Below are positions 1 to 23,874 of a stretch of DNA of 23,925 nt, piece by piece. A program made the position numbers and the translations under genes. The notes below the pieces were generated by a model. The model was given only the letters and a program-made list of their open reading frames with translations, did not search any database and was not told the DNA's origin. Positions within the stretch are counted from its first letter, which is position 1. Each line of letters opens with the position of its first letter. Source of the stretch: Baffinella frigidus (Eukaryota > Cryptophyceae > Cryptomonadales > Baffinellaceae); the NCBI GenBank assembly GCA_026770585.1, contig MU646367.1, forward strand, positions 353,533 through 377,457, read 5' to 3'.

Positions 1-340
1 TCAGGGTTTAGAGTTTAGGGTTTAGGGTTTAGGGTTTAGGGTTCAGAGTTTAAAGTTTGGGGGTCGGGGTTTCAGGGTGTAGGGTGTAGGGTTTAGGGTG
101 AAGGGTTTATGGTTTAGGTTTTAGGGTCTGGGGTTTAGGGTTTAGGGTTTAGGGTTTAGGGTTTAGGGTCTAGGGTTTAGGATTTAGGTTTGAGGTTTGA
201 GGTTTTAGGGTGTAGGGTTTAGGGTTTAGGGTTTAGGGTGTAGGGTCTAGGGTTTATGGTTCAGGGTTCAGTGTTTAGGGTTTAGGGTTAAGGGTTTATG
301 GGTTAGGGTTTAGTGTTTAGTGTTCAGTGTACAAGTCTTT
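1..340 (+). repeat. Telomere-like TTTAGGG array, left edge
   Basis: Degenerate head-to-tail TTTAGGG 7-mers with variants TGTAGGG, TTCAGGG and TTAAGGG. The array lies in what should be the fifth intron of DGAT2 (minus strand), so the sense strand reads CCCTAAA. It is interrupted by point changes, so it is an old internal array and not a chromosome end. Confidence 0.9.
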
Positions 341-795
341 GGGTATAGGGTTTAGGTTTAGAACTCAGCGCTCTAAACCATGCACAGGGGTCCAGGATTC
401 GTGGCTGGCACTTCATGATCTCAGGGGCGAGGTTTCAGGGCTGAACCCTGAAAACCAATCCCGGAAACCTGCCACACAGCGGGCTACGAAGGGATTTTTG
501 GTGGCTTAGCATTCTTGGTGGCTCAGCCACCAAGAATTGGCCAGGATACCCGTAGGAACAACCCTACATCCCTACGAATTGCCTACCGTGGAGTCTTATG
601 GGGTACCATCTTGTGAGTTATTCACGAAATCCCGTGCAGTCCGCTGTGAAGTACGCGGGTGGCCTAACGTGACAAATCCTCCAACCGCAGTCCGATTGCT
701 GGCCCATGGCCGTTTCTTGGTTCAAATGTGTGAACTGACCGCAGCTCCCGAATTCACAACAGCCCTTGCTCGAACCCTGAACAATAAATCCTAAA
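341..795. other. Unique sequence between opposed telomere-like arrays
   Basis: No exon of DGAT2 or any other family is recognisable on either strand. The stretch contains a perfect 13-bp stem dyad with a one-base centre at 511-537 (ATTCTTGGTGGCT / AGCCACCAAGAAT). It is flanked by TTTAGGG on the left and CCCTAAA on the right. Confidence 0.6.
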
Positions 796-1328
796 CCCAG
801 ACCGGAAAAGGAAAACACAAAACCGAACCCATCATACCCTCAAACATAAATAATAGCCCCTAAACCCTAAACCCTAAACCCCAAACCCTAGACGCTGAGC
901 TCTGAACTCTACACCCTCAACCCTAAACTCTTAAAACCTAAAACCGTACTCCCAAACCCTAAATTCTGAATCCAGAATTCTACACCCTACACCCTACACC
1001 CGACAACCTAAAACTGACCCCAAAAACCTTGAAACTAAAACCTAATTATATACCTTAGATCTACACCCTACACCCTACACCCTACACCCTACACCCTAAC
1101 CATAACCCCTCAAACCTTGAAACTAAAACCTAACTATATACCCTAGACCTACACCCTACACCCTACACCCTACACCTTACAACCTACACCGTAAACCCTA
1201 CACCCTACACCCTTCACCATAGACACACACTAAACCCTGAACCCTACACCCAAACCCTCAACACTAAACCTGGAACCCCAAAACCAACACCTGAACCCTA
1301 AACAACTCCTTAACCCTAAAAAGCCAAC
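796..1328 (-). repeat. Telomere-like CCCTAAA/CCCTACA array in DGAT2 intron 5
   Basis: On the plus strand the units are CCCTAAA and, from about 980, mostly CCCTACA. The segment CCTTGAAACTAAAACCTAA-TATATACC-TAGA occurs twice (near 1028 and 1115), showing local duplication. This array is inverted relative to the one at 1-340. On the DGAT2 sense strand it reads TTTAGGG, the less common orientation in this window. Confidence 0.88.
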
Positions 1329-3240
1329 CTTGCTCGAGGGCCTTATCCATAACGGGGCGCGTAGCCTCGATGCATCCACCCGCCAGACACAGCTCGCGGT
1401 ACACGGGGATGCAGAAGCACACGCTTGCGCCGCCCTGCCACCACACGCCACGGAGGTCAGTCTAGGCCCGCTGGCCTTGCATCCCGGGTGAGGGCTTCGG
1501 GCAGGGGGCGTGGTGCGGGATGCGGGACTCAGGGTGGGGTCTCTGAGGGCTGCGGTTGAGAAGGGAAATGTTCGAGGCTGCCACGCCAGATTGCAGTTGG
1601 AGGTTGAAGTCCTAGATATCTAGGACTTTTGACTTTTGAAAACCACTGCCCTCAGGAGAATAGACTTTTGGCGACCCCTTGCAAGACTCTGGCGTGGTGA
1701 TACGCACCGCGTGGAGCTGGGTGAAAGAAAACTTGTCGTGGAAGCCGTTGGATTCCTTGTTGTTGACGTCTGTGAGGAGGTTCACGATCGACCCTGCCGC
1801 CGCGCGCCGCTCCTTCAGTCTACTCCCGTCTCGCATCTTGCGACGAGTCCTACCATGGCGCATTTCCAAGGGATGCTTGAAATAGGGACACCACGCCCGG
1901 TTGAGAGCATCGCGGCGTGGACGCGGGGAGGCAGGCAACGTGACGGCAAAAACGCGTGGAAGCTGGCACGACGCACACGGTACTGATTCTCGGATGAGTA
2001 CGCGCTTGTGGAGAAACACCCGGCACTGATTCGCGGGCGGAGAGGCGGTGACGCACCCCAGGGGAGGATGCTGTGGGGATGCACGCCGAAGACGTACTTC
2101 TTCGCGGGGTCAAGCTCCTCTTCGAAGTGCAGCTTCAGATTCATCCTGTCGTCGAGAACCACGTTCAATCGTCCCGGTTCCGGTGAAAGCTCAAGGGCTT
2201 GGATGTATGTGTGTAGCAGATAGTATGGAATCGGGGAATTGATCCAAGGCTTGATCGAGTTCTCTGATTGGAACACGATGCGAATCATTAGGTTTGCAAA
2301 TAGTTTTCAACTTGGACTCTACTCCAGTGGCCTCGCCACCGACGCTAGATTATAGGGTTTAGGGTTTGGGGTTTGGGGTTTAGGGTTTAGGGTTTAGGGT
2401 TTAGGGTTGAGGGTTTGGGGTTGAGGGTTTGGGGTTGAGGGTGCAGGGTGTTGGGCGTAGGGTGTAGGGTGTAGGGTGCATGGTATAGGGTGTATGTTGG
2501 AGGGTGTAGGGTGTAGGTCGCAGGGTTTAAGGTGTAGGGTGTAAGGTTCAGGGTTCAGGGTTCAGGGTTCAGGGTTCAGGGTTTAGGGTGTAGGGTTCAG
2601 GGTTCAGGGTTCAGGGTTCAGGGTTTAGGGTTTGGGGTGTAGGGTGTAGGGTGTAGGGTTTGAGGTTTAGGGTGTAGGGTGTAGGGTATAGGTTGTAGGG
2701 TTTGGGGTTTAGAGTTTAGGAGTTTAGTGTTGAGGGTTTAGGGCTTAGGGTCTAGGGCTTAGGGTTCAGGGTTTTGGTTTCAGGGTTCTCGCCTTCGTTT
2801 GAGCCAGTGCCAGATCCAGTGCGTCTGCACGTGCATGCTGTTGCGGCCTTCCCGTTGTTCGCAGCCGTTCAGGTAGCTCGGAAGGTAGAAGGCAAGGACG
2901 ACGAGGAGGAGTTGGGGTGGCAGAACGAGTCGCCACACGGGCAAGAAGAACACGGAGGAGTACACGGCGAGGAAGATCGTGCGGAACAGTTTGTCCGCCG
3001 CCCAACCTCCCCCGTTCCTGAAGCCCATACGCAGGGTTATGCCATGGCAGGGCGCAGAGAAGAGGAAGCTTGCCGCACAATGAGCTCTAAACCTTGCACC
3101 CTAAACCCTGAGCGGGCGGGGTCGGCGACGAACCCGCGGAGGACGGCGCCCCGGTCCATCCACCACAGTGCCGAGATGGTGCAGACGACGATGGCCATCG
3201 TCATGGGCGAGGGCTGCAGCTGCGCGGGAATGAACTCCAT
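1329..3240 (-). CDS. DGAT2: Diacylglycerol O-acyltransferase 2-type enzyme (DGAT2), 3' end beyond the window
   Basis: This family makes triacylglycerol from diacylglycerol and acyl-CoA in the endoplasmic reticulum membrane. Exons on the minus strand: 3240-3134, 3017 to about 2793, about 2263-2057, 1793-1708 and 1434-1329. Exon 1 starts MEFIPAQLQPS at the ATG at 3240 and has a hydrophobic segment. Exon 2 has two more (FLAVYSSVFFLPVWRLV, LLLVVLAFYLPSYLNG) and then Trp-rich HWIWHWLKR. Exon 3 holds the family signature ELDPAKKYVFGVHPHSILPWG; the HPHS form resembles plant DGAT2 (EPHS) more than animal HPHG. Exons 4 and 5 read SIVNLLTDVNNKESNGFHDK and then CFCIPVYRELCLAGGCIEATRPVMDKALEQ, the family's PxxREL...GCIxASR block. 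Phases match at every junction except 2/3, where the donor appears to be a non-canonical GC (near 2792) and the acceptor is unresolved. The C-terminal half lies left of the window. A monoacylglycerol or wax acyltransferase relative is possible. Confidence 0.87.
1607..1628. repeat. Perfect 22-bp palindrome in DGAT2 intron 4
   Basis: The 11-bp half AAGTCCTAGAT is followed directly by its exact reverse complement, with no spacer. It is followed at 1625-1640 by ACTTTTGACTTTTGAAA, whose reverse complement contains the TTCAAAAGTC motif seen in the PUS10/TAF1 promoter gap. Role unknown. Confidence 0.75.
2340..2782 (+). repeat. Telomere-like TTTAGGG array in DGAT2 intron 2
   Basis: About 440 bp of TTTAGGG, TGTAGGG and TTCAGGG units fill the intron between DGAT2 exons 2 and 3. 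The sense strand (minus) is C-rich. Short runs are homogenised: TTCAGGG repeats at 2547-2582 and 2598-2622, and TGTAGGG around 2638-2660. Confidence 0.9.
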
Positions 3241-3662
3241 CGTGGGGCGTTGTGTTCCAAAGCAAGCAAGGGGATCAGTTGCCCACAGATCGATTTTAAC
3301 AGGGTCAAAACTCAAGCGACCCCGAGCGCAAGCTCTAGAGAGGGAGGCGTTTGCAGCCCCGCAAGCTCCTCACACGAGACGTGTGCGATCCCACTAGGAG
3401 AGATGAGGGAGTGGGTGTTGCGTCTCCTTCTCTCGGATCTTGAAAACGTGGTAAAATTTGGAAGACGACCGGGTTTGGGTCTTGGATGGCCACTTGAAAA
3501 GTCAATTACGCTTGTAGTTGGAGCCTTTTTGTCAACTTTGTGGGGATTCGATGCCATAATTTGAGCCCCCTCCCAAGTTGATGTTCAAAATCGACAAACG
3601 GGCAGGGGTCTGGATTTCCGTTTCATCGCTGTGTGTGCGCCGTGTGGAGGCTTCACGCTCGC
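3241..3662. promoter_or_regulatory. Divergent promoter gap between DGAT2 and AGGF1-like genes
   Basis: Both start codons face away from this 422-bp gap, so it should hold both promoters and 5' leaders. I see no TATA box. There is a TTGAAAAGTC motif near 3493, close to the TTCAAAAGTC motif repeated in the PUS10/TAF1 promoter gap. An AT-rich stretch lies around 3500-3595 in otherwise GC-rich DNA. Function is inferred from position only. Confidence 0.5.
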
Positions 3663-6600
3663 ATGTCCAATGAGCCTGCGGTCTGCTCTGAGAGCCCTGT
3701 GGACGCCGCGGCAAATTCTTCCCTGGTGGAATTCCAGGAGGGAGCCATGTCCGCTGACCCCGCTGAATTCTCCGAGAGCGGCCCTGCCGACGCCGCGGCC
3801 AGTCCGGCCATGGAAGGCCAAGAGGAGGGCTGGGTGTGGCTCGCAGACTGGCAACGCTGGGGGCACGCTGCGTCTGGCATGATGCTTGACCCCCACACGG
3901 GCAAGTATTTTGTGTTGAACGGCACGGAGATGCAGGAGGTAGCTGCGCCGCACGGAGAGGCTGGGCAGGATCCAGACGCGCAGCCAGGGGAGTGGGACGG
4001 GGAGAGTTTGAGCGGGGGGGGGGAGGAGGACGACGACCTCGACGGCGCGAGCTTCAGCGAGGGGGAGCTTGCTGATCTCGACGGTGGGGGCTTCGACGAG
4101 CAGGAGGCCAGCCAACTGTTGGGTACACACACTCCCAAGGATGGGACGGCGGAGAACGGCGCGGAGGAGGAGCCAGCGAATCCGGATGTGTGCGGCGATT
4201 GGATCTTCGATGGGGAGTGGTGGATTACAGCGGAGGGGCACTCGTACCATCCGGTGCTGAAGCAGCTCTTCCACAACGGGGAGCGCGTCCTCTCCCAGGT
4301 CTAGCTCTGCTTCAGTTAAATTGGTCTCATCATTTTCCAGTTTCCACGCCAAAAGTTGAGGGATTGGTACCACAGAACAGGGGAATCAACTTCCGGTCTC
4401 GTCGAATGATGAGACCAAATTAACTCAGACAGAGCTGTTTGTTTGGTAGACTTATCCGTCAAATGTCAATTTGGTAGAGTGATCCCAACGGCCACGCTGA
4501 TTTGGTGGACAGCTCCACGGATAGTGTTTGGGTGGGGGTACCAGGCTGGCTTTGCATTCGTCAGTGGGTGGCTGAGTGCGGCATGGCGTGGTGCGTGTCT
4601 CGCACCACGCCTGAAACGAAATCACCACCCAGCTGCCTGCCGCCGCCGCCGCATTCACCAGTGCTGATGATTAACAATAGGAGCGTGCCACACGTTACAG
4701 ACATGTTCGCCCCACCATGCACAGTGTTTTGTCAACCCTTTTTAGGGGTTTGGGTTTAGGGGGTTGGGGTTTAGGATTTAGGGTTTGGGGTTTAGGATTT
4801 AGGGTTTGGGGTTGAGGTTTAGGGGTTCAGGGGTTTGGGGTTTAGGGTATGGGGTTTAAGGTTTAAGGTTTTAGGGTTTAGAGTTTAGGGTTTACGTTTA
4901 GGGTTGAGGGTTTATGGGTTTATGGGTTTTAGGGTTTGGTGTGTAGGGTTTAGGTCTTGGGGGTTTCTGTTTCAGGGTTGAGGGTAGGTAGTTTGGGGTT
5001 TAGGGTGTAGGTCAGATAGCTAACAGCGCCCTATGCCGGCGCGGGATTCGCAGGAAGACAAGTTTGGACTGGACGGAGAGGCGGCGCGCGAGAAGTGGGA
5101 GCAGGATCGCTATGCTCTCGACTACGGACACTACATCCCCAAGGCACACATCGCCTCCCCCCACCCTCCGCCTATATACAGACACCCTTGATCCCAGGCC
5201 GCCCAAATGTCCCAACACTCGAACATTTGTCTGCCGACTCCGCCTTTTTTTTCGCACCTAAATAGTTCTCAGCAGGATTCAAGGGGGCGTCAGGGGCTTC
5301 TTTTCCAAACAGCCGCCTTAACTAAATTCGGCCAACTGTGACCCTAGTTATGGGGTGGGGGAAACTGAGCGTAAACCTCCTCATAACCTTGCGTCCTTAG
5401 GTGCCCTTAAAGCCTAGCTGCCCACAGTCTGACCTTCTGGTGGGAGGCGGTTGCAGGAGCCAGCGCACGCGCAGGAGGGCGGCGCGGCCGAAGACGGGGC
5501 AGCCACGAACCCTCCCGAGGAGGAGGAGGCTGCGGGGGTAGAAGCTCCGAAGGGGAGGGTTCCGCGGAAGCACATGATCGGGCCGCTAGGCGCGACCATC
5601 GGGCGGAGCACGGCGTGCGGCGTGCACGTCAAGTGCCACCTCATTTCGCGCGAGCACTGCCGCGTCGCCTTCGTGCCTGCCGAGGGGGAGGAGCCGGGCC
5701 GATTTGTTCTCCTGGATTGTGGGAGTCGAAGGGGGACGTTGCTCAACGCAAGGTTCGCCCCCCCATGTGGCTGCGTGTTCTTGATTCCTGGACTGGGTTA
5801 CGGGCGTGTGGGTGCTTTCGGGGGGGGTCTGGATCTCGTCGCCGGTCCCGCACTGCGTCCACATGGTCATTCAAGTGGATGCTGGGCTAAGAGTGTGTGT
5901 GCACCGAGAGGCAGATCCCAAAATGCGACCATCAAACTGCATGCAGAAATGAGAGTTAACGACACTTGAGCAGACAGATCCCCTCTGGACGAGGACTCGG
6001 AGGCGAAGGGGCGGAGGCTTCCAGCGAGGAGGTGCTCAAGCCCGGGGATCGAATCGTGCTCTCGCCGCGTGCGTCGCTCACTGTCACTGCTTCTCCCGCG
6101 GTAACGCCCACTCACCACTGCCCCCGTGGATCCAGCAGCCTAGGATCGATCAGGGGTTTTCCAGGTTCAAAGCCTGCCTGGTTTAGTCATCTTTCACGTA
6201 CATAACCCGCCCGATTCAGTCAACCGTCGTGAGAGTCTTGTCCAGGCCATCTCCTGCCCTCTATTCCTCCTGAACCCAGGTCGAAAAACTGCAATCCTTG
6301 CTAGCAATCCCAACTGAGCGCCAACCAATCGTGCGCAGTTTCCTCCGGCTGGATGCAATGCACTAGCCAGGCGCTCTCCAGTCCCCACAGAATATCGCAG
6401 GCTGAGTGGAAGGCTGCGCGGACCGCAGGGGTCACTGGTCCTGATCGAGCGGCTGAGCGCGCCCTGGCGCGAGCGCGGCGCTTCCTTGGACGCCGAGGGG
6501 GCTGCGGCCAGCGCGGGGGGGATGTCGCGCGAGGAGTATCGCGACCGGACGCGCGAGCGAAGAAGGCTCTTCGAGGCGGCTGAGCGCGAGGCCGTGCGGG

Positions 6601-7551: not shown

Positions 7552-7757
7552 CCGCGCACGTTGGTGCGGCTGATTGTATGTGCATGTAGAGACAAGGCTG
7601 GGAGTGAATATTGAGGCAGCGAGGCTTAACGCGGGCGCGAGTTTGTTTCCGGTGCGTGTACTGTGATGTACGTACGTGCGCTCGTTGTGCACGACACCCC
7701 ACTGTGTGCTGCACGAGAAGACCCCCACGCTGCGGCAGAAGAGGAGGTGCAGAGCCC
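7552..7757. other. Convergent 3' end region between AGGF1-like and PUS10
   Basis: The two stop codons are 206 bp apart, facing each other, so both 3' UTRs and polyadenylation sites must lie or overlap here. I see no canonical AATAAA on either strand. No telomere-like repeat is present in this gap, unlike the neighbouring introns. Confidence 0.55.
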
Positions 7758-10700
7758 TCACACCTCCACCTGATCCACGTCCAACTGAAGGATGTCGGCG
7801 TCGCAGTGAAGCAAGCTGCACACACCCCACGTCAGATTCAGGACAGCCGAGCGAGGCGCAAGCCAGAAAGGAGAGCTGGCAGGAAACGTGCTCTGACAAA
7901 CGGGAGAGGGATGCCGCACCTTCCTAGACTAGGGCGCGTGCGGCCGAGGTCGCCATGCACAAACTCCTTGACGTATGTCCCTGCCTCCTGCCACCCGCCG
8001 CACGGATGGGGCACGTCAGCGAGGCAACCCCACGGCAGGCTGTAGCCACGCGCCATGAGCATATCACCTCTCGCGCTATTTCCTGCTCAGACACCGCCTC
8101 GGTGGAGGTGCATACATGGCGGCCGTTGGTAGTAGGAAAGGTCTCTCTCTAGCACAGGTGGAGCGCACCACAGCGCACGATGGTAATTGAGACCCGGGGA
8201 GCGGCGGGGGGGAGGGGGGCAAAACCGTTTGGAGGTCGAGGAGGAGGAAGCGGGGGTTGACGACAGTGCATTTGATGCTGTGGATGTGGCGCACGCGCGT
8301 CGCGAGCGAGCGGCGATGCAGCACCCGCACGGGCGTGTCCTGGTGTCAGGGCCGTGGTGAGGATGAGCCCGCCCGACTGTATTCGGGGCATCGAGGAAAG
8401 GCCCCATTCAGGGCTGCACGTGACTTCATTACAGGGGTACCTCGCTCATAAGAAAGCGCCTCCCCCTAGGACCCTACAGTAGGCCTATACCTAGGGCCTC
8501 ATGGTGGCGCTCATGAGAAAGCGCCTCCCCCTAGGACCCTACAGTAGGCCTATGCCTAGGGCCCCATGGTGGCGCTCATAAGAAAGCGCCTCCCCCTAGG
8601 ACCCTACAGTAGGCCTATGCCTGGGGCCCTATGGTGGCCCTAGGGGGGGGGGGGGGCGCTTTCTTATTAGCGAGGCACCCCTGTAAAGGCATCAGAGTTG
8701 CAAGGATGGTCTGACATCTGGTCGATCGTATCGGGGAAAGGCCCCATTTTGGACTGCACGTGACTTCAGTAAAGGCATCAGAGTTGCAAGGACGGTCTCA
8801 AGCGTAGGGGCCTATCCAGGACCTGTTTCGAGAGTCATAAAGAAGAAGAAGAAGAAGAGGAAGAATGGGGTGACACCTGGTCGATGGGGAAAGGAGTGGC
8901 CATGGCGTTGATCTCCGCGATGCGCGCGGGCGAGACTTCTTTCGAGGTCCACACCTGCTTCACGGTTGCGGGTTAAGGGTCTAGGGTCTAGGGTTTAGCG
9001 CAGCCACCACAGCCCCACCACTCTTCACTAACCCAGGTCGCAGGTTTTACATCAGGGCGATGCCTCGACAGAGCAGGGTTGGTACCAGAAACGCCTGAAT
9101 TAGTCAACAGGCGCGGGAAATCTGGGAGCGAGCGATACTAGTTGGGTTTTGGTGAGAGGCGGGAGCGGCCAGACGGGTTGGGAGACGCAGCGAGTGTGGA
9201 GGAGAGCGGCGCGGTGGGTTTCGGGTTTAATATTTAGGGTTCAGGGTCCAGGGTTCAGGGTTTAGGGTTTAGGGTTTAGGGTTTAGGGTTTAGGGTTTGG
9301 GGTTGAGGATTTAGGGTTCAGGGTGTAGGGTGTGGGTGTAGGGTAAAGGGCTGGGGCGGGACAAGCGCGCGGTAGAATTTGCGCTTGGTCTCGCCGGAGC
9401 TCTTGATCAGCTGGATGTAGCTTCGCCCCACTGCCCGCACCCGGTTCACCTGCGGTGATAGTCATACAGTTAGTGCTCTCCACGCCTCAACTTTTCACGC
9501 CATAAGTGCCCCGGGATAAGCCGTGGATTACTATCATCCGGCAGGAACCAGGGGCTGAGGCGTGTGGTTCTCATAGTCCCTGGGGACTCAAATTATGGCA
9601 ATTATGGTGTGGGTAGACGTGGCCTGCAGGGTCTGAGTGAGGAGACCGCGCGCGGTTGGGGGCGTCAGGTTCATCGCTTCCTACGCCCAGCATGTCTAGG
9701 TTTCGGTCGCAGGTTACGAGCCTGGACAAAAAACGCTTGTGAACCGCCAGTGTCCTAGGCTCGTAACCTAAGACCCAAATCTGGGCGCTTGCTGTTACCA
9801 CGCGGCGCGAGATGAAGGCACGGCAGGGGAGGATGGGCACCTGGATGAGGCTGGTCGACGCGTTGATGGCAGCCTCAATCTGCGTGTACACGCCCCTCTC
9901 CTTCCCCTCCCCCGGTGTGGCCCCGGGCCGACTCGCTGCCGCCTGCACCCATCAAAACGTTGATATCAGAAAAGCCTTTTTTAGAAGTCGTGTTATGAAG
10001 TCAACCCCCCTACAAATTCTTCAACTAATGCGTAGAGAAAAGAATAAGTTCACGAATGTTTAGAGGAATTGACTTGAGAAACCGACTTTGAAAAAGGCTT
10101 TTCTGAGATAAACGTTGTTGGCAACCACCACTGAGGGCTCTCGCTGAGCATTACCAGGCAGCATGCCCACTGCTGCAGAAGGAACAGCCTCCAGGCGGCA
10201 TGCCGGGGACGTCTGGGGGCATCAATAGGTGTGGGCACTTGACCAGGGAGGGGGCTGGGGATAGAGCGGCGTGGTTGGGGATGGGAATGAAAGAACCTCG
10301 GGAGCCGGCGGGGGCAGGTGTGGGTTCGACGGAAGGGTTTTGGCATCCACAAGCTCAATGTAGAACGGCCGCCCCTGTACAGTCCACGCCACGAGTTCGT
10401 CAGTGGCAACATCCGCCGACGGTTCGAAAACGGCGAGCGCGCAGGGCTGCATGCGTGGATGATTGTTCTGGGGGGTGAATGGGGGTGCAGCAAGACTTTG
10501 TTCCGAGGGTGAATGGGGGTGCAGCAAGACTGGCGTTGACGCTGGGCGCTCTCAGATGGAGGAGCTGTCGAACCTCCTCCGACGTGTACACCCTGGCCTC
10601 AGGGTCTGGAGTGCAGTTTCAGGGTTTGAGGTGTGGGGTTTAGTGATGCTGGAGCAACAGACCTCCCCGAGCATGCGAACATCAACATCTTCGCGGCCCG

Positions 10701-13662: not shown

Positions 13663-16600
13663 ATGGGGGAGCTCGACAAGTTCTGGCTCGGGAACGTGAA
13701 CGAAAAGGGGGAGGTCGACCAGGAGGGTTACGATGATGATACCAAGGAGGGGCTGCTCAAGACTACGCGCGAGGAGAAGCTCTCGAGCAACTCGGTCAAC
13801 GCCACGGACACCACAGGCGGAGATGAGGACTTTCAGATGCCTGTCAACTCCGTGGTCAAGTCCAAGAACGCGGTCGATTACACTGATGAGCAGGAGGCCG
13901 CAGAGGATGACGCGAGCAACGACAAGTACGTCGAGCGTGCCAAGGCGCTGCTGAACCGCACAGCACCGGCGGCAGCGCAATCCGTGCGCAGAACTGACGA
14001 CGACTACGACGATGAGGAGGAGGAGGACGAACAAGCGCCAGGCAGCAGCTCCGCCAAGCCGCCCGCTCCTGCAGCTGCACCTCCAGGGGACCCTTCAGCC
14101 GCGGCGCACGCACACGTGGACGCAGCTGAAGGGCAGGCTCCCGCCGCTGTGCCCGGGGCTGCAGGCGACGTGGGGGGGGGGGCGAGCGCGAAGGACAGGC
14201 GGCGGAACGTTGCTGGGCCGCAGAAGGTGGATCCGTGGGCGACGCAGGTGAATCTGCGGAAGAACGGGATGCTGATGCTGAGCGAGATGTACGACGGTCC
14301 GGTGAAGATGCCGCGCATGATCCGCGGCCGCAAGAACACTTTCTCCTTGAACAGCAAGGTGCGTCCCCCCACAACCCAATCCCCCCCCGCGACCTCATCC
14401 GTGCATCCCCAGGGCGTTGGGCGCAGAAATTGCCCTGCCCCCCCTACCCTGCTCACCAAATGGCATTACTGGTAGGTGGAGGTGATGAGTGACGAGGAGG
14501 AGAGGTTCGTGGACGAAGCAGCAAGACGCGGGGCCGCTGCCGCCTCCATGCGCCTTCGCGACCGCATGGTCTGCCCCCCCCACCCCCCCACCCCTTCCCC
14601 GAGACGTTTTCCCCGCAGAGAAACTGCGGCGCCCCGTGGGAATTTTCATGCGGTGGCTGGGCGGATATGCTGAGGTGACGCCGCATCCTCCCTGGCTGAG
14701 ATGCGGGGGGGGTGCGGCAGATGGAGCCGGAGGTGAGCGACGAGGAGGAGATGCAGGAGAAGAAGCGCAAGGACGAGGCTGCGTCCGCCGCTGGACTGGC
14801 GTTAGCGGCGTCTGCCTCGGTGGACCAGCCTCCGGTTCCAGGGGATGGCGACGGGGATGCGCTGATGGCGGCGGAGGGGGGGGATGGGAAGGTGGCGGAG
14901 GAGGAGAAGGAGGGGGGGGGGGCGCGGGGGGTGTTGAAAGGGGCGACGTCGCAGACGCCGAAAACGCTGGAGCTGCAGATGTGGGAGGATAACATCATCT
15001 GGGATGGGAGCAGCAGCGACGAGGGGGACGACGAGCGCGAGGAGAAAGATAGTGGGGACGAGGAGGAGGAGGATGCCGCGCCGATGCTGCTCGATCCCGT
15101 CGTTCCACACGACGCCGGCGGTGAGACCCTACACCCTCAACCAGCGCTGACACGCACACCATTCCCTCGCTCTGACTGACTGAGCGCTCGCGAGCCGGAA
15201 CCAGCGCTCCCACGCGCTCCACTTCTTCGCTCTGGCTGACACCAGGCTGGCGCTGCGTGCCTTGGCGCAGGTTGGAGCTGTGGCTGGCAGAGGCGGTGTG
15301 TAGCCTCGCAGGGCACGCTGAGGGTGGGTGCTGCGACTGACTACCCGTGAGAGTGCTGACTGCCTAGACTTCACCGCGTCTGACTGACTTGCCTACACGG
15401 CAGGCAACGGAATGATGGACATGCTGTTCGGCGGCGGGGGCGACGACATGGTGCTCGCGCCCGGCGGAAGAGGAGGAGACGATGGCGTCGAAATTATCGC
15501 GCCGGATGATGACAAGAAGCATGGTCCGGGAAACGGAAAAAAGCACGTCTCGTTGACAATCGGTACGCCCGGGGTCGTGTGTTTTTCAGGGGGGGGGGTA
15601 GTTGTTTGGGCGGCTTTGATTTGGTTGTGTGCGCGGGGTCTTGTTTGTCCTGGTGCCATCGTGCATCCTCGTGCGCAGTGCAATGCTTGGATTTGCCGGG
15701 GAGGTCCGTTGTTGATAGCGCCTGGAGAAATCATAGTGCTGCATTGTCGTTGAATATCTTGACAGCATGGATTGAGGTGAGGGCACCTCTGGTGTCCCCC
15801 CGCCACGCCTTCACCACGGACCCTTGCTCTCCTCCCCTCGGCACCCCTGGACGCTCACCCTTGGTTCCCACCCCGCAGTGGAGCGGATAGCGCTATCTAA
15901 GCGCTATTTCGCTGAGCGGGACGTGCACAACCCCACAAATGAGGTGGTGATCAACCAGCGCAACGTCAAGCTCGAAGACGGCGCTTGGCTCGATCACATC
16001 CTCTGGCAAGACTCGGTACCCCCTCTCCCCGCGCCCTGCAGCGCTTCCATATTATGCGGATGTTGCGCGTGAGCGAGCACCCGTCCCCGCGCCACACACA
16101 AGTGCCGCTTCCAGCCTCCCGTCGCGCATCTTTCCCCGCGTGCAGCACGCGTGCGCGCAGGTGCGTAGGTGCAGCTTCCTGCCACGTGTTGTCCAGTGGG
16201 CAGTGTAGTTGTTTCGGCGCCCCCCCCGGGAGTGATGGGAGGCGCTCGTTTCAGCCCCACACCCCACACCCCTAAACCCCTAAACGCCTAAACCCGAAAC
16301 CCCCGCGTGGCAGGATCGGAAACGAGTGGCGCAGACAGGGGGATCCCTCCCCCGCCGCTTCGGGGGAGGCGGGCGCCGCGTCGGCGGCAGCAGCCTCGCG
16401 CGCCAGACGCCGCTCGCGCCCCACTCGCGCGCCGAGCGCGTGCACGACTGCGTGCCGCCGTGGTGGTCGCGCCCGTGCGAGCACAAGCAGCTCTCGCTCG
16501 AGTCGCTCGCGATGAGACTCGACCTCTCGAATGACCACTACTACCAGGCAACTACCTGTACCCGCTGCTCACCCCCCGCTGCGTCCCCCCCTCTGCTTCC

Positions 16601-19600
16601 CCCTCGCTGCTACCCCACGGTGCCCATGCGTTCCCACCCACCCCGCGTCGCCCGCGCAAAGGCCAGTGTGATCCCTCTCACATCTCCGCCGCGTCCTCGT
16701 CCCTCGCCCTGCAGCCCTCCTCCCAGCCGCGCCTCGGCAGCACACCTCTCGCATCCCCTGACCACGCCCCCCTCGACCATCAGGGCGGCGCCGGGTCGAA
16801 GGCGCGGATCAGGCTGGGGCGGCCGTCGGTGATGCACGCGCCAGCCGCGACGCGGTTCCCAACCCCCCCAAACCCCACACCCTAAACCCTAAACCCTAAA
16901 CCCTAAACCCTAAACCCTAAACCCTAAACCCGAAACCCGAAACCCTAAACCCTAAATATTCAACCCTCCACCTCAAACCCTAAACTCTAAACTCTAAACC
17001 CGAAAACATGAACCATAAACCATAAACCATAAATCCTAGCCCATAAATCATAAACCATAAACCATGAACGATAAACACTGGGCAGGTTCCCGCGGCGGGC
17101 GATACACACGGACGGGCTGCGTTCGGACTTCCACCGCCCGAGAATGTTCATCGATGCGCGCCAGCGGTCCCCGCCCTTCCCACCTAACACTCTTCCAGGG
17201 TTGGTAGGGTAGGGGTTTGCGGGGTTTCGGGGCCCGTCTCACCTGAACCCGCCCAGAGGTTTAGGGGTTTGTTGTTTTGGGTTTGGCCTCGCAGACGGCC
17301 TGTCTCTGCCCCGGGGCGGCATCGAGAAAACGTGGTGCAGGAGCCCTGTAGCTTTCTTTCGTGCAACACCGTGTGGTGCTTCCCCCGCAATCGCCACAAG
17401 TTCTGATGATAATCGCTTGGCGGTTTGAAAAATCTGGAGCGCGGTGGGAGCGGCAGAGTTAGCGCTAGGGCAGCGTGCTGCACACGCTCCGATGAATCCC
17501 AGAGTGGTATAGAGCCAGGCGCGCATGCCGTATGCGAAGCCACACGCAGAAATCGCCAGGTTTTGACGGAGTGAAGCTGAAGGGCGGGGGCGGCGGCAGG
17601 TTCCACATTCTGATGATATTTGTTTGGCGATGTAAAAAAGCTGAGCGGAGGTGGGTGCGCCCTAAACCCTAAACCCTGAACCCTGAACCCTAAAGCAGGT
17701 TCCACATCGCGTTCTCGCCCGTGGAGCTGCCCGAGAAGAGCAAGGACCGCAAGGCATTGCGAGGCGCCCAGGTCCTCGTGTTCTTGCCCCACACTGCCCA
17801 TCCACCTCGCGGCTGGTGAAGCTCGATGCTGCCATGTTGTTATGCGCGTTGGAAAAAAGCGGCCTTCTCGCTAGCGTGGCTGTCTCTCTCTTTAAATTGG
17901 CCTGCGTACACACTTTGTCCATGAACTCTAACCAGACCCCAAACCCCAGCCACTAAACCCAAAACGATGAACCCTTGAACCTAAAACCTAGTCTCTGGTT
18001 GCAGGAGAAGATCATGGCGATGAAGAAGCCGCGCGACGTGACATGCGCTGACTCGCGAAACCTCATCATCGAACACCTCGAGGTCCGTCTCACACCCCCC
18101 GACCCATCAACCCTCATCCCTGAAGCGTCAGCCACCTGCGGGAAGAGGCACCGCACGTCAGATGCCTCACGCGCCTGTCCGTGCACTATCCCTCATCATC
18201 CAACACCTCGAGTTGTGTCTCACGCCTCTAGCTCTGCCCCCTGTCACGCACAGCTTTTAGTGGCGGGGGGGTCCACGTGGACTGGAGACCTTGGAATTGG
18301 AGCGGAGTGGAGCGTTTGTTTGCAAAACTATACCAGGATTTCCACCATTTCCACCAACGGCTCCAAGATCCCGCACTTGTCCATGCCAGCACCATCCCCA
18401 ACCCTCCACTCCTCCGCTGCCGGACCCCAGCCTCGCTGGGCAACGCGTGCGCCCCGCCCCCCCCTCACGCGGAGAGCGGCGGGCTCTATCCATAACCTCT
18501 TCTTTTTTTCTCGAATCTCGCAGGAGTGCCCTCCGATGGTATCGAACCCCGGGATGGCCGCGCGGATCAGGCACTTCTACCGATCCAAGCACGATGCGCC
18601 CCCCCCGACGATCCCGCAGGAGCACCTCAACGACGGCAAGCCGGTGCCGCTTGATCCTCGACCCGAAACCCGAAACCCGAAACCCGAAACCCGAAACTCT
18701 AAACCACAAACCCTAAACCCGAAACTCTTAATCCCACACCTCAAACCCTAAACCCTAAACCCTAAACCCTAAACCCGAAACCCTAAACCCTAAACCCAAA
18801 CCCCAAACCCCAAACCACGAACCATGAACCCTAAACACCAAACACAAACCCCAAACCATGAACTCTGAGCCATAGCCCCTAAACCCAAAACACTGAACAG
18901 TAAACCTTAAACGCAAACCCCAAACCCCAAACCAGGTGGCGCTTGACCCGCAGCAGGACTCGCCGTTTTTCGGGGAACTTCCCGACGGGGCGAACGCGTT
19001 TGTGAGTGCGCTTGAGAACAACATGCAGCGAAGCCCGATGGTCAAGCACCAGGCGGAGTCCTCGGATTTCCTGGTTGTCAAGTGCGGGGACAAGTACTAT
19101 TTGCGGGAGATCGATTCGATGTACCTCGCGGGGCAGACGTACCCTTTTGTCAAGGTGCTACACCCTGAACCCTAAACCATCAACCCTGAACCCTAAACCA
19201 TCAACCCTGAACCCTAAACCATGAACCCCGAACCATAAACCCTACACTCTGAACCATAAACCCCAAACTCCAAACTCCAAACCCCAAACCCCAAACCCCA
19301 AACCCCAAACCCCAAACCCCAAACCCCAAACCCCAAACCCTAAACCCTTACCCCTGAACCCTAAACCCTTACCCCCAAACCCCAAACCCGTGAAGGTGCC
19401 GGCGCCCGAGAGCAAGGATCAGAAGGCGTACGAGCGGAAGCAGTTGCAGACGTTCATCCTCTCGCGCCTCCGCCACGGCGGGACCATCCAGGTGCCACTG
19501 CGCCCCAGAACTCCCCCGCATTTCGCTGCAACCAACCAACGGACTAGCCAAGACGCCCTCCAACCTGCATTCGTCATGCGTTGTTTACACCCCGCAGGCT

Positions 19601-22600
19601 CCTAACTGTAACGCACCAATCCTGCAACCACCCCTCCCGCACCCCAGAGCTCCCCGCATTTCGCCTGAAGCAACCGACGATTCCCTGCTACTAAGCCGTG
19701 ACTGCACCATCCTGCATGCATTCCCCTCAGGGGCCCGACTAAATCTGCAACGATCCAGATGCATGAGATCTTCGACGAGTTCAAAGCTGTCTCCGAAACC
19801 TCCATCCGCCGCGAGCTTGGGGTGTGCGGCAACTTCGTGCGCAAGGGGGGTGATGGCGGGCATTGGACGCTCAAGGATGCCAACGAGCTTCCCAAGGATC
19901 TGGTGGAGACCGAGGACTCGGCGGAGACGGTGTGTGTTCAGGAGTCGCTGCAGAACGGGCATATGCGGCTGCAGAACATGGGCATTTCGAAGCTGCATCA
20001 GGTCGACCCTCGTCTTCTGCTTCTTTTTTCTTCTTCTTTTTTTCCTCTTCGTCTTCTTCTTCTTCTTCTGCTTATGTATGTCTCTCAAGTCTGGAGATGA
20101 GTGATCTACCCGCCACGGACACCTTGCCCTCACCCCGCCTGCTCAACCCCCTCGGGGGACCACACCCGAGAAACCTCGCCTCGACAGCACCCGTCTGCCC
20201 CCGACTGACAACTGCTCAGCCGCAATTGCTACAGGGGCTTTAGCGCGTGTCTGACACTACCCACACGTGCCCCACAGCGCTGAGCCTGAGCCTCAGCTTT
20301 GCTACCACGGTGGCAGTAGGCGGGGAGTCGAGGTGGAGCATAGCAGCCACTGACAGCACGAGCCTCTCCACTCTGATCCTGCGCTAAGCCTGTGCTTTGC
20401 GCGGTGGTGATGCGTGGGGAACGAGGGTGGGGCCACAACAGGTCCGAGGGATGTAGCGTGTGCCTGACCCTGCCGCACGAGCCCCCCCTGCGCTGAGGCT
20501 GAGGTGTGGAGGTGTGTGGGGAGACCAGATGCGCTAAGCCTTCGCTGTGCCTCAGCGTCGCGCGGTGGTGACGAAAATTGTGGTTCAGTCGACTGGTGCG
20601 ATGAGAGTTGACTAATCGGAGGTGTGGGAGGAGAGCAGGTGGAGGTGCAGCTGATCAGTCAAGTGGACGGGATGCAGAAGGACCGCAACCTCGACAAGGG
20701 CGTCCAGGCTGGCGCCCTCTGCGTGCACGAGGCGGTACCCCCAAAACCCCAAACACGAAACACGAAACACGAAACACGAAACCCAAAACCCAAAACCCAA
20801 AACCCAAAACCCAAAACCCAAAACGCACACCCCACAGGTACGATTCGCGCCATGGAACATGACAAACAACCTGGTGACGGCCGCGGACCGCGCGCCGCTG
20901 ACGCTCTCGACCCTCTCCGGAAGCGAGACCAGCAAGAAGCTCTCGCGCAGCAACGAGCAGAACTTCTCCAAGCACGATCCGAAAGATAAGAAGGTGCAGG
21001 CGGACATTGCGCGGAAGCGGCAGATGATCTTCAATGAGCAGTTGGAGATGATCTCTTCGAAGGAGCCTCCGACTTCCTCTTCTGATGAGGAGGGCCGTGA
21101 CGGCGAGGTCCTCTCCCTACAACCACCCTCCCTCCAGACACCCTCTCTCCAACCACCCTCCCTCCAACCAACCAACCCCACACTACCATGCGTGTGCCTA
21201 CCGCCAACCACCCTCCCGCCACCCTGTGTGTACCTCCCTCCACCCCCCACACACACACACACACCCCGCGTGCGCCAGCCATGCCCGCTGCCGCACTCCG
21301 CCCTGTCCGTACACCAGCAATGGCTAGCGGGCTCTCGCACACGTCACGTGTGATGTGCTGCGAAGCCCTGCCCTGCACCCCCGCCCCCGCGCGCCGTCCC
21401 CCAGGAGCGTCCCCGCGTAGTCAGCGAAATGCGCACGGGTGGATACACGCGTATAAGGTGTGGGGTTTAGAGTGTACGGGTCGGCTGAATGGGCACGGGG
21501 TGGTGCACGCAGGATCCGGAGGATCAGTTCGAGGGGAGGAGCGCGAAGCCGCGGCGCGTCGAGCGGGTCACGCTCGCCCATCGCTGGCGCAAGGAGGAGA
21601 TGCCTACTACCGGGGTTTGTCCCAAGCCCCCTCTCCATCCCTCTCCAGGAGTGCATAGGCCCGCCTCAGGTTGGCGGGTTTTGTGATTCCTTCTTAGATC
21701 TCGTGATCTGGCCCCGCGACCCCTCCTGAAGTGCGGAGGCCCGCCTTGGGGCTTCCTTCGTGTTGATTCCGTGCGATGTTGGATCTGGTGAGGGGGGGGG
21801 GCGCGAGACACAATCGCCGTCGGATGAGGTTTGGGAAGAGAAAATTAGGGTAGCGGGTTGGTGGGGCGGTAGGATGCCAGCTCTGCGCGAGTGAGTGCTT
21901 GGGTGACAGGCAGAGGGGGGTTGGTGGTGATGGCGGCGCACCACCTGGGCCCTAAACCCTACACCCTAAACCAGGAATTCCGGTGGAAGTGCGAGACGGT
22001 CACGAACCCCACGGAAGTGGGACGGATGCACAAGGAGCAGGAGGCCAAAAAGACGCCCCTGGCAGAGGACGGTCTCGACGAGAGGACCAAGCACCATGCG
22101 CGGAAGGAGAAGAAGCGATTGCAGGAGCAGAAGCGCCGCCAGGTCCCCCACATCTCTTTCCGCCTCCCAACAAACTTGTGTCTTCGCGTTCAACATCCCC
22201 ACCACCCAACAACACGGTGGGGGGGGGAGTTGAACCCATCCTCCCATCCAGTTATTTGGGAGCAACAAGGTAGTCGTGCGGGTGGTGCACACCACCTCCC
22301 TCCCCCCAACAAGCACGGGGGGGGGGGCGGGGGGGGCGATGATGCTCTGGAGCATGCTCTGCCCGGGCGCTCAGCCCCGCGCGGTTGCCACCGGGCCAGC
22401 GCGTAAACCATAAACCATAAACCATAAACTATAAATCATAGACCATAGACCATAAGTCATAAACCCTACACCATAAACCATAAACCATAAACCCCAAACC
22501 CCAAACCCCATCACGCAGGACATGAAGCGGCAGAAGCAACTCAACGGATCGCACTCAGCCAGCTGGGGGGGCGGGGGTGGGCCGCGAAGAGAGAAGGCTG

Positions 22601-23874
22601 GCGTCATCAAGCTCTCCAAGGAACAGCTCCTCGACTACGAGCAGGTGCGCTGGTAGGGGCTGATGCTCTAGGGTTAAGGGTGCGACAGAGCTGGACCTGG
22701 TTTAGGGTTCAGGGGTTGAGGGTTTAGATTGTTCGGTTTAGAGAGAGACAGAGGTGGTTAAGGGTAGAGAGGGTTATGGGTGTATGGGCGCAGGTTGTAG
22801 GGTCCAGGTTGTGTAGCGCAGGTGTGCGTGTGCGTGTAGGATGGAACAAGTGTCAGGTGGTCTGAGGCGGGCCCGTCCGAGTGAGTACCCCCGTGAAAGA
22901 GCAGGCGATACCTTCTGCCCATCGCTGCCAACGCTGCCTCGCAGCCTCGAGTCCGAAACCTGTGCTTCGAGACCGTAACCTGTGCGGCGATGGTGTGGAG
23001 CAGAAGAAGAAGAACGACGCTCGCAAGGGACCAGATGGCGCGGGGCGATCCCGCCGCGCCGGACAGCGCCGGTTTGCACCCCCTCCCGATCTTCGTCACG
23101 TGCAGGTCTTTTTTTTATGTGCACCACAAACCGGCCACTTTTGCAGATGCGTTCCCCGTCGTTGGTAGTACATTGACTTAAGTTTTTTGAGGAAGTTGGT
23201 GATATAGCTTCGAAAGGCGCCCCGCAGCGCCCGTGTACGCTCATCCGAGGCCCTCTCATCATCCGAGGCCCTCTTTCTCACCAGTCAGGGTCCGCCAAGT
23301 GCGCCCTCCGTGTGCCCAACACTCATGGGCGTGTGTCCCTTCCACAGGCGACTCGATCCGCTGATGGACCTACGCAACGTCTTCTCCCGCGCGGTGCGCT
23401 TTGCCCTCACCCCTCCCCGTGTACAGCGTATCAATCACCTCGATTGCTGCTCGATTGCTGCTGTCGTGCGTTTCGCCCTCACCTCTCCCCCGGAACTCAA
23501 CCCTGCATCACAATCCCGTCGCGCAGAGTGTGTATCTATCATCTCGTTTGCTTCCGTGGAACGCTTCGCGTGGCATCGCACGAACAGAAAATTATCAGCA
23601 CCGACGAGGGATAAAAATCGCAGTCAGGGTTGATTGTGAGGTACTGAGGGTGTGGAAGGGAGCGGAGGGTGTTGAGGCAAGCAAGGAACGGAGAGTGGGG
23701 AAGGAAGCATGGAAAGGCCGCTCGTTTTTTCTGCGCGATTGATTGTTAGCGACCGGCGGACTGTTCTTTTGCCACTAATTGTATGGTTAAGGGTGTAGGC
23801 GACTGATTGTTTTCGAACGGGAGCAGGTCAACGCCATGTGGCAGGACCCCAAATCGGTGCCGTTCCGTGCGGCG
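13663..23874 (+). CDS. TAF1: TFIID subunit 1 (TAF1), C-terminus beyond the window
   Basis: TAF1 is the scaffold subunit of general transcription factor TFIID in the nucleus. Twenty-two exons join in phase into about 1208 residues: 13663-14358, 14476-14568, 14721-15120, 15404-15562, 15879-16015, 16314-16547, 16784-16854, 17086-17166, 17699-17771, 18005-18082, 18524-18643, 18936-19154, 19396-19491, 19759-20001, 20639-20734, 20838-21107, 21513-21614, 21975-22142, 22519-22644, about 23004-23071, 23348-23393 and 23827-23874. The N-terminus (FWLGNVNEKGEVD...AVDYTDEQEAAED) matches the TAND-region motifs. Next come WEDNIIWDG, LDLSNDHYYQ and LRSDFHRPRMF, then the DUF3591 core and the basic coil before the bromodomains. 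Acidic and low-complexity stretches fill exons 1-3. Exon 6 appears to use a GC donor at 16548. The acceptor of exon 20 is the least certain boundary. The bromodomains, apart from their first residues, lie beyond the right edge. Confidence 0.95.
15139..15258. repeat. 60-bp tandem duplication in TAF1 intron 3
   Basis: AACCAGCGCT...CGCTCTG-CTGAC occurs at 15139 and again at 15199, exactly 60 bp later, with moderate divergence. It starts about 20 bp after the exon 3 donor. Confidence 0.7.
16855..17084 (+). repeat. Telomere-like array filling TAF1 intron 7
   Basis: Nearly the whole intron is CCCTAAA (about 16878-16930), then CCCGAAA, then a CCATAAA-type block (about 17007-17075). GGTTCCC occurs at both ends, spanning the donor (16854-16860) and the acceptor (17085-17091). 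A small CCCTAAA patch also lies before exon 6 (16262-16303). Confidence 0.9.
17401..17707 (+). repeat. Internal duplications and small telomere-like patch in TAF1 intron 8
   Basis: A segment starting TTCTGATGATA and containing TTGGCG-TGTAAAAA-type sequence occurs at 17401-17445 and again, diverged, at 17608-17655. The 13-mer GCAGGTTCCACAT occurs at 17596-17608 and 17695-17707. The second copy is the actual acceptor of exon 9. Between the copies lies a CCCTAAACCCTGAA patch (17659-17694). Confidence 0.8.
18191..18223 (+). repeat. Copy of the TAF1 exon 10/intron 10 boundary inside intron 10
   Basis: These 33 bases match 18061-18093 at 29 positions. That segment covers the last 22 bases of exon 10 and the donor. 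In the copy the G of the donor GT is changed to T, so it should not splice. Confidence 0.82.
18658..18935 (+). repeat. Telomere-like array filling TAF1 intron 11
   Basis: Begins with five perfect CCCGAAA units (18661-18695), then CCCTAAA (18745-18775) and CCCCAAA units, and runs to AACCAG at the acceptor. The first 14 intron bases and the first 14 bases of exon 12 are direct repeats (GTGCCGCTTGATCC / GTGGCGCTTGACCC). Confidence 0.92.
19155..19395 (+). repeat. Telomere-like array filling TAF1 intron 12
   Basis: CCCTGAACCCTAAACCATCAA units (a 21-base higher-order period near 19163-19225) pass into a CCCCAAA run (about 19262-19338). The intron is nothing but repeat. GTCAAGGTGC (19149-19158) and GTGAAGGTGC (19390-19399) span its two splice sites. 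Confidence 0.92.
19492..19758 (+). repeat. Tandem duplication inside TAF1 intron 13
   Basis: No telomeric repeat here. Sequence around CGCCCCAGAACTCCCCCGCATTTCGC (about 19500) recurs near 19640 as CACCCCAGAGCTCCCCGCATTTCGCC. ATCCAGGTGC (19486-19495) and ATCCAGATGC (19753-19762) span the two splice sites. Confidence 0.78.
20002..20638 (+). repeat. TAF1 intron 14: CTT tract and degenerate ~200-bp duplication
   Basis: A pyrimidine tract of TTC units lies at 20020-20076. Then TAGCG-GTGTCTGAC-type sequence near 20242 recurs at 20455. CGCTAAGCCT...GCGCGGTGGTGA near 20382 recurs at 20531. This fits a tandem duplication with a later deletion in the second copy. No exon is recognisable. Confidence 0.65.
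20735..20837 (+). repeat. Homogenised 7-mer arrays in TAF1 intron 15
   Basis: About four ACACGAA-type units (20753-20780) are followed by seven near-perfect CCCAAAA units (20781-20826), filling a 103-bp intron. GTAC begins both the intron and exon 16. These blocks are far more regular than the long arrays, so they expanded recently. Confidence 0.9.
21113..21270 (+). repeat. CCACCCTCC repeats and CA microsatellite in TAF1 intron 16
   Basis: Short CAACCACCCTCCCTCC units (21118-21175) are followed by an ACACAC run (21247-21262). The rest of the intron, to 21512, shows nothing recognisable apart from one GTGGGGTTTAGAG telomere-like patch near 21459. Confidence 0.75.
21650..21800 (+). repeat. ~80-bp tandem duplication in TAF1 intron 17
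   Basis: AGTGC-AGGCCCGCCT...CTTC-T...ATCTGG occurs near 21651 and again near 21732, diverged. A small CCCTAAACCCTACACC patch (21950-21970) leads directly into the exon 18 acceptor. Confidence 0.65.
22404..22512 (+). repeat. CCATAAA-type array before TAF1 exon 19
   Basis: Units of CCATAAA and variants (CATAGAC, CATAAGT), then CCCCAAA, ending a few bases before the acceptor at 22518. The same CCATAAA variant appears in intron 7, so this 7-mer family has spread between introns or arisen repeatedly. Confidence 0.88.
22668..22810 (+). repeat. Degenerate TTTAGGG-type patch in TAF1 intron 19
   Basis: Sparse TTTAGGG, TTAAGGG and TGTAGGG units. This is the only clear TAF1 patch with the G-rich strand in the sense direction, and the repeats are more decayed than elsewhere. 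Confidence 0.7.
23394..23826 (+). repeat. TAF1 intron 21 with a copy of its own donor region
   Basis: The first 25 intron bases (GTGCGCTTTGCCCTCACC...) recur at 23466-23490 with 22 matches, 72 bp downstream. The second copy still has GTGCG and could act as an alternative donor. A similar short tandem (TCATCCGAGGCCCTCT twice) lies at 23240-23273 in intron 20. Confidence 0.78.

Follow-up and report, generated by a model that had tools for sequence, protein, structure and literature searches.

How new spliceosomal introns are born is a long-standing question, for which few cases with identifiable inserted DNA are available. It is raised here by a stretch of 23,925 bp of nuclear DNA from the cryptophyte Baffinella frigidus (hereafter the window), in which many introns of the genes for TAF1, PUS10 and an AGGF1-like protein carry tandem, often degenerate arrays of the unit TTTAGGG or its complement CCCTAAA. 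The insert is in this case recognisable: TTTAGGG is the plant-type telomere unit and is found in cryptophytes too. An original prediction, made from the letters of the window, had singled out the arrays as intron bodies; the short direct repeats that flank some of them and the bias in their strand, which it did not report, point to how such introns arose. On balance we lean towards the reading that telomeric repeats entered at staggered breaks, AG|GT-like sites being duplicated in the process, and that some of the insertions into exons became introns.

The window corresponds to positions 353533-377457 of contig C65 (999,381 bp) in an assembly of 382,457,362 bp and 1,364 contigs. Arrays of the TTTAGGG/CCCTAAA type, with a period of 7, occupy 1,888 + 1,247 bp of it, and five first-order Markov simulations of the window contained 0 to 16 bp of array. 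A total of 35 introns were modelled, 21 in TAF1, five in the AGGF1-like gene and nine in PUS10 (designated t, a and p, respectively). A tally made when 33 introns were modelled gave 2,043 array-like bases in 11,884 bp of intron, none in 6,777 bp of exon and none in 1,173 bp of intergenic sequence. The predicted absence of arrays from exons was thus borne out. The three intergenic gaps are likewise free of arrays, as had been claimed, but total only 1,173 bp, for which 1.1 arrays are expected and the chance of zero is 0.33; their emptiness is therefore uninformative, and a confinement of the arrays to introns argued from it was rejected, the gaps being too short. Some array is present in 18 of the 35 introns, at least 50% of the length is array in five, and 17 have none. 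The supposed systematic use of arrays as intron body is thus overstated, with arrays present throughout the genome, while TAF1 introns 7, 11, 12 and 15 do consist mostly of array (shares in Table 1). Telomere-type DNA as nearly the whole body of some housekeeping-gene introns is indeed unusual. A search of the open-access literature, outside which most subscription journals lie, gave no description of introns formed from telomeric repeats.

At t7, t11, t12 and t15, short direct repeats lie across both splice junctions. For a quantitative assessment, 20 nt on either side of the 5' junction of each intron were compared with the same region around its own 3' junction, the null distribution being formed by pairing donors with the acceptors of other introns (1,190 swapped pairs for 35 introns; 99% point 7, maximum 9). 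The in-register scores are 10 for t11, 7.5 for t12, 7 for t7, 5 for t15 and 2 for p1, and swapped pairs score as high in 0/1,190, 10/1,190, 27/1,190 and 189/1,190 cases for t11, t12, t7 and t15, respectively. The repeats are in splice register, off-register maxima being 3 vs 10 in register for t11, 3 vs 7.5 for t12, 5 vs 7 for t7 and 3 vs 5 for t15. The mean score is 6.3 in the five introns with at least 50% array and 3.37 in the other 30 (label permutation 1,033/200,000; Mann-Whitney p 0.017). Junction repeats were rejected as a measure for sense-TTTAGGG arrays, in which the repeat unit itself contains AG and GT and swapped pairs score high too.

The repeats in the window had been noticed by eye ahead of testing, and other stretches of the genome were therefore sampled. 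Genome-wide, exact triple units number 53,120, compared with 27 for a reversed control, and exact seven-unit matches 7,218, compared with 0 (overlapping matches counted). Being tandem telomere-type repeats internal to a chromosome contig, the arrays in the window and at many other sites fit the description of interstitial telomeric sequences. For a random set, 120 places were drawn on contigs C1-C65 and 20 taken as 10-kb stretches (one overlapping draw was skipped and the next used); 48,134 of the 200,000 letters, in 7 of the 20 stretches, are readable. Of the readable letters 6.6% are array-like; arrays of 35 bp or more number 17 and occur in five of the seven stretches. A 'young' set comprised 20 stretches on C1 and C2 around arrays of seven perfect units, among the matches listed, picked for the perfect units only and not for flanking repeats. 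In 75-bp windows on either side, 25 of 37 unselected arrays of the young set and 13 of 15 of the random set are without an unambiguous coding call (7/44 young and 3/18 random arrays were dropped from this test and from that of orientation because of N or short flanks). Many arrays genome-wide thus sit away from detectable coding sequence.

A further association was observed at the 3' end of the arrays. A CCCTAAA array is followed within 15 nt downstream by CAGGT at 1,365 places genome-wide, compared with 84 for the permuted CGAGT (overlapping matches counted in both); the two words occur 61 and 29 times in the window (2.1 times), which leaves a corrected CAGGT excess of ~7.7-fold. A 'GT near array start' was dropped as a signal, being expected by chance. 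A third sample, the array-CAGGT set, comprised 40 stretches (L066-L105) on C1 to C8, among the matches listed, some rows having been skipped without a fixed rule while the flanks were still unseen. At these 40 sites the array ends favour one phase, AACC|AG (16 sites), over two others that end in C, AAC|AG (3) and AACCC|AG (3).

Junction repeats were found in excess in the samples as well. In a test free of offset, 4 of 26 testable young-set arrays exceed the swapped-pair 99% point vs 0.26 expected, although in one of the four (L048) the repeat is itself telomere-like (7/33 young and 3/16 random arrays were dropped for N or short flanks). Splice-register scores of at least 7 occur in 2/41 young-set cases vs 0.20 expected and in 1/17 of the random set vs 0.08 expected (11/85 rows dropped on the same grounds). 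Among the first 20 array-CAGGT stretches, 3 of 18 score at least 6 vs 0.76 expected (permutation 20/5,000). In the second 20, analysed with the script unchanged, 1 of 19 scores at least 8 vs 0.22 expected, with one repeat reaching 11.5, and in the pooled sites 3 of 37 score at least 8 vs 0.39 expected (permutation 18/4,000); 2/20 and 1/20 stretches were dropped for N or short flanks. The direct repeats of the window and the samples are 5 to 16 bp long. The junction repeats appear real, but they mark a minority of arrays. A Pfam search of the L038 frame gave no match, nor was a match found for the joined frames of L077 and L075.

The coding potential of the flanks was examined at the array-CAGGT sites by codon usage trained on the window (in-sample false-positive rate 8%; 5/40 sites dropped for N or short flanks). 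The score is positive to the right of CAG at 24 of the 35 evaluable sites, compared with 13 on the opposite strand, which supports 3' splice sites at these positions, and positive on both sides at 9/35. One of the nine, a cyclin-like frame, has a 229-bp array intron, the Cyclin_N match stopping before the junction. Another, a plasma-membrane-type Ca ATPase, has a 141-bp array intron whose junction is covered by the Pfam match; its PDB match starts two residues ahead of the junction. The cyclin-like gene and the Ca ATPase are, judged from these frames, likely further cases of array introns outside the window.

The arrays are also biased in orientation. Relative to the genes of the window, including three arrays of a putative DGAT2 gene, the CCCTAAA sense prevails by 13 to 3 (p 0.021), and among the young unselected arrays by 11 to 1 (p 0.006). 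A perfect CCCTAAA strand has no GT and no AG, whereas TTTAGGG has both in every unit; low densities are seen in the five array introns (0.0096 each for GT and AG, vs 0.054 and 0.052 in 23 introns with less than 10% array). An array in the CCCTAAA sense hence offers no competing splice sites, which would explain its predominance in genes, probably through selection on orientation.

Evidence for splicing is available for all three modelled genes. Donors are GT or GC and acceptors AG in 35/35 introns, by construction of the models, and the spliced TAF1, AGGF1-like and PUS10 models have no internal stops. The TAF1 model (1,153 aa as far as t18) matches DUF3591 (E 2.6e-68), T484DRAFT_1883814 (100% over the 441 aa searched) and, with no gap across t12, the TAF1 of PDB 6mzm, presumably the human protein (E 8e-33); a short TAF1 piece searched against PDB gave no match. 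The deposited TAF1 P0121 equals the model over 859 residues, to the end of the window, and spans 19 of the 21 introns, t3-t20; t19a and t19b were added to the model from it. The PUS10 model matches Pus10_C (E 1.9e-79), and in its first form B. frigidus T484DRAFT_1934619 (93% over the whole length). Its p4 and p5 were revised after the frames and the deposited protein P0001 had been viewed, the p5 junction being set to match P0001, and the sole remaining difference is 27 extra residues at p4. Removal of the TAF1 and PUS10 introns is thus predicted on the basis of deposited protein models. For the AGGF1-like model (581 aa, with FHA and G-patch domains), the 553-aa open reading frame P0127, on a contig of 1,877 bp, lies letter for letter within it, with all five junctions matched, including those of the 755-bp array intron a1. 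As the residues of P0127 span 3,802 bp in the window, its contig is probably a transcript assembly; if so, it supports removal of a1-a5 from RNA. The label 'lgn' is taken by us to denote assemblies of public reads.

Arrays had been claimed for the introns of four genes; the claim stands for these three, and the fourth gene, DGAT2, is putative. Of three fragments scanned against Pfam, one matched DAGAT (PF03982, E 9.4e-5, 21.9 bits against a cut-off of 22) and the other two gave no Pfam match, by which the gene is weakly supported. Its exon structure is incomplete, and its arrays were therefore left out of the intron statistics.

Relatives bear on the direction of change. In two proteins of uncultured relatives, P0122 and P0123 (search identities 49% and 52%), TAF1 aligns without a gap across t11, t12, t13 and t15, and P0123, on a contig of 6,876 bp, is continuous through the positions of t1-t17, with ends that resemble intron sequence. 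For PUS10, P0002 (longest contig of its cluster 47,255 bp) is continuous through the p1 and p2 positions before it enters intron-like sequence at p3; P0005 and P0006 do so at p1. It is possible that p1 and p2 are missing in P0002 and t1-t17 in P0123, if the contigs are genomic and were read unspliced; under the mechanism favoured below the change would be a gain, not a loss.

The mechanism that we favour would proceed as follows. While staggered double-strand breaks were under repair, telomere-type repeats would have entered the nuclear genome of B. frigidus at many internal positions, telomerase extension or the capture of telomeric fragments being the likeliest routes. If an exon was broken at an AG|GT-like sequence, fill-in of the staggered ends would duplicate the target, with |GT of one copy used as the 5' splice site and AG| of the other as the 3' splice site. 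The array would thereby turn into an intron, and splicing it out would recover the original frame; the remaining arrays would have landed in or beside pre-existing introns, or in non-coding DNA. Introns t7, t11 and t12 fit creation by insertion. A wider proposal, that telomerase or captured telomeric DNA goes on supplying Baffinella with new spliceosomal introns, with CCCTAAA neutral to splicing and hundreds of introns perhaps so born, is put forward tentatively, and we hold it to be somewhat more doubtful than the mechanism itself.

Several observations weigh against insertion at breaks as the origin of these introns. The window repeats were seen before they were tested; the t15 repeat is not significant alone because so many swapped pairs score as high; and array share and junction score are weakly correlated (Spearman 0.28, p 0.11). 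Intron t13 (19492-19758) has no array and nevertheless scores 8, through the junction repeat ACCATCCAG / ACGATCCAG, and among the 30 introns with less than 50% array 4 score at least 6 vs 1.9 expected; junction repeats are therefore not confined to arrays, and other insertions may also have made introns. Most tested array introns have no junction repeat, none of the 13 random-set arrays exceeds the 99% point in the offset-free test, and the second array-CAGGT set is not significant (permutation 436/4,000). The donor-side count at CCCTAAA arrays, 502, is without a control count. The coding score to the left of the arrays does not stand out (11/35 vs 10/35 on the opposite strand), a clear repeat is found only at L077 among the nine sites coding on both sides, and the domain match of L071 does not reach across the junction. 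The orientation in the random set is 1 to 1, and the evidence for empty sites is protein read-through in P0002 and P0123, on contigs that are putatively genomic. In the available part of PMC11782384, 213 introns of many kinds are each reported to have direct repeats at their borders or close to them; as such repeats are claimed generally, the swapped-pair control matters. The Baffinella repeats differ from those described there in that swapped pairs served as the control for a test in splice register, and only array introns, together with a few more, showed an excess.

Many of these points would suit a view in which the arrays created no introns, having been inserted or having arisen in existing introns and expanded by slippage, with the junction repeats due to chance or left by older gains. 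Intron p1 looks older than its array, since ~290 bp of it are other sequence and P0005 and P0006 are intron-like at the same site, and blocks of one variant unit in t15 (CACGAAA, CCCAAAA) resemble local slippage. This view leaves unexplained the in-register repeats of 7 to 16 bp from exon to intron at t7, t11, t12, L038, L052, L055 and L077, and the excess over swapped pairs in sets that were not selected for repeats, and we regard it as rather unlikely, though a serious contender. A mobile element of the introner type with a telomere-like body, whose transposase made the duplications, appears improbable. Introners are known to create introns, a single kind of sequence giving rise to many of them, and some families have target duplications (PMC9860276, in its available part), traits that the Baffinella introns may share; the body of the Baffinella introns is a tandem array, however, and neither a fixed-end unit nor a fixed duplication length was seen. 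A repeat length that varies between 5 and 16 bp is more in keeping with break repair than with a transposase. Terminal inverted repeats would not fit into t12, whose array lies 3 and 5 bp from the splice sites (at t7, t11 and t15 up to 20 bp are left), and array introns have the tandem unit in common, with variable array edges, no other shared sequence having been noticed by eye and in one comparison, with no genome-wide family search made. The words cryptoph, Guillardia and Baffinella are nowhere in the main text of PMC9860276.

Maintenance by selection of arrays as functional elements, such as sites for telomere-repeat proteins or splicing enhancers, could account for the strand bias and for arrays close to 3' splice sites, and short telo boxes are active in plant promoters (PMC3022908, in its available part). 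The same portion of that source describes plant-type telomere units at internal sites, with telomerase proposed as their source, as may hold in Baffinella; telo boxes differ in being single units, commonest in 5' UTRs (untranslated regions) and slightly below expectation in introns. The Baffinella arrays are long and lie within genes, unlike a single unit in a promoter or 5' UTR, and they are degenerate, variable in length, spread over 18/35 introns and present away from detectable coding sequence, and we consider their maintenance by selection very improbable. The least probable explanation is an assembly artefact that misjoined repeats into genes. Arrays are hard to assemble, and the length of C65 (999,381 bp) disagrees with the 1,010,273 bp of the protein record, but in TAF1, PUS10, the AGGF1-like gene and probably the Ca ATPase and the cyclin-like gene the exons on either side of the arrays splice in frame, and array matches number in the thousands genome-wide.

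Both halves of the mechanism that we favour, telomeric insertion at breaks and intron gain at breaks, are known separately, and it is their meeting that the window suggests. In mammals, telomeric repeats were inserted at breaks, some with target site duplications (PMC2246262), and the Baffinella arrays resemble these interstitial telomeric sequences, for which break repair and telomerase have been proposed (PMC2246262, PMC7215372, PMC8537989), in being internal repeats that sometimes have such duplications. The available portions of these sources describe no creation of spliceosomal introns, whereas the Baffinella duplications lie in coding exons and extend across the splice junctions. Among the routes proposed for intron gain is the repair of staggered breaks, in which insertion occurs during end joining and short direct repeats flank the gained introns, according to the available part of a review (PMC3443670). 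The Baffinella repeats are similar, but the insert is recognisable as a single class of DNA, the telomeric repeat, and recurs at many places; 'telomer' is nowhere in the main text of that review.

If the mechanism is true, telomere maintenance and the machinery of chromosome ends would be tied to gene structure and to the birth of introns. The strand of the insert affects splicing in a way predictable from sequence, and many copies at differing stages of decay are present in one genome; with a recognisable insert, the succession of break, duplication, splicing and decay is therefore testable by comparison of strains. The coordinates of the array introns, arrays and repeats are collected in Table 1.

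Table 1. Introns with arrays, separate arrays and direct repeats; positions refer to the window, and sequences are given for the best of the repeats sampled elsewhere in the genome.
Feature	Position or sequence	Strand	Remarks
TAF1 intron t7	16855..17085	+	74% array; sense-CCCTAAA array 16870-17065
t7 direct repeat	GGTTCCC at 16854-16860 and 17085-17091		7 bp, across both splice junctions
TAF1 intron t11	18644..18935	+	82% array; sense-CCCTAAA array 18661-18933
t11 direct repeat	GGTG(C/G)CGCTTGA(T/C)CC at 18643-18657 and 18935-18949		15 bp, across both junctions
TAF1 intron t12	19155..19395	+	94% array; sense-CCCTAAA array 19158-19390
t12 direct repeat	GT(C/G)AAGGTGC at 19149-19158 and 19390-19399		10 bp, across both junctions
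TAF1 intron t15	20735..20837	+	61% array; sense-CCCAAAA/CACGAAA array 20740-20824
t15 direct repeat	GGTAC at 20734-20738 and 20837-20841		5 bp, across both junctions
PUS10 intron p1	11368..12310	-	large sense-CCCTAAA array in 3' part, preceded by ~290 bp of other sequence; junction repeat absent
PUS10 intron p2	10816..11259	-	sense-CCCTAAA array 11051-11221
PUS10 intron p6	8955..9362	-	sense-CCCTAAA arrays 8970-9000, 9215-9333; spliced out in deposited P0001
AGGF1-like intron a1	4299..5053	+	sense-TTTAGGG array 4741-5012; orientation exception; missing from P0127
TAF1 intron t18	22143..22518	+	sense-CCCTAAA array 22402-22510
TAF1 intron t5	16016..16313	+	short sense-CCCTAAA array 16270-16303
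TAF1 intron t8	17167..17698	+	short sense-CCCTAAA array 17658-17696, adjoins 3' splice site
TAF1 intron t19a	22645..23003	+	sense-TTTAGGG array 22667-22728; orientation exception
TTTAGGG array	1..360	+	sense CCCTAAA relative to putative DGAT2 (- strand)
CCCTAAA array	784..1321	+	sense TTTAGGG relative to putative DGAT2
TTTAGGG array	2350..2777	+	in putative DGAT2 intron; sense CCCTAAA
L052 repeat	AGGT(C/G)ATCTTCAACCC		frame open across joined flanks
L055 repeat	CCAAGGT(C/G)AT(C/G)CTCG		frame open across joined flanks
L077 repeat	GGTACATC		frame open across joined flanks
L038 repeat	GGTCCCC		frame open across joined flanks

Among the sampled stretches, L046, L047 and L048 each have a cluster of three or four degenerate CCCTAAA arrays inside ~1 kb, and L052 has four arrays within 1.4 kb, apparently between successive short exons of one gene. 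In L051 (520-706) an array lies between perfect 13-bp repeats, CCCTGCTCGACCC, with junctions lacking GT-AG, and is perhaps an unspliced insertion; in L050 (593-962), GGCGAGCCCC is present on either side of an array, positioned as for a GC-AG intron. A scan of viral contigs for the telomere pattern gave 17 loci, in which the arrays are short.

Other features were observed in the introns of the window. The 5' end of t6 (16548) and of a2 (5144) is GC instead of GT. The 5' part of p1 has a GA-rich low-complexity tract (12171-12293). In p4 an inverted repeat, AGAAAAGCCTTTTT / AAAAAGGCTTTTCT, bounds 137 bp (9968-10104), like a small transposon. Three tandem copies of 65 bp are present in p7 (8443-8638), and similar sequence is visible by eye near L044:8177-8221, so that it may be a dispersed repeat. 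In t10 (18061-18226) the end of the preceding exon is repeated 130 bp downstream within the intron (86% over 36 nt), and t8 (17401-17659) has two 52-nt copies, 75% alike, of which the second is preceded by a copy of the start of the next exon, GCAGGTTCCACA.

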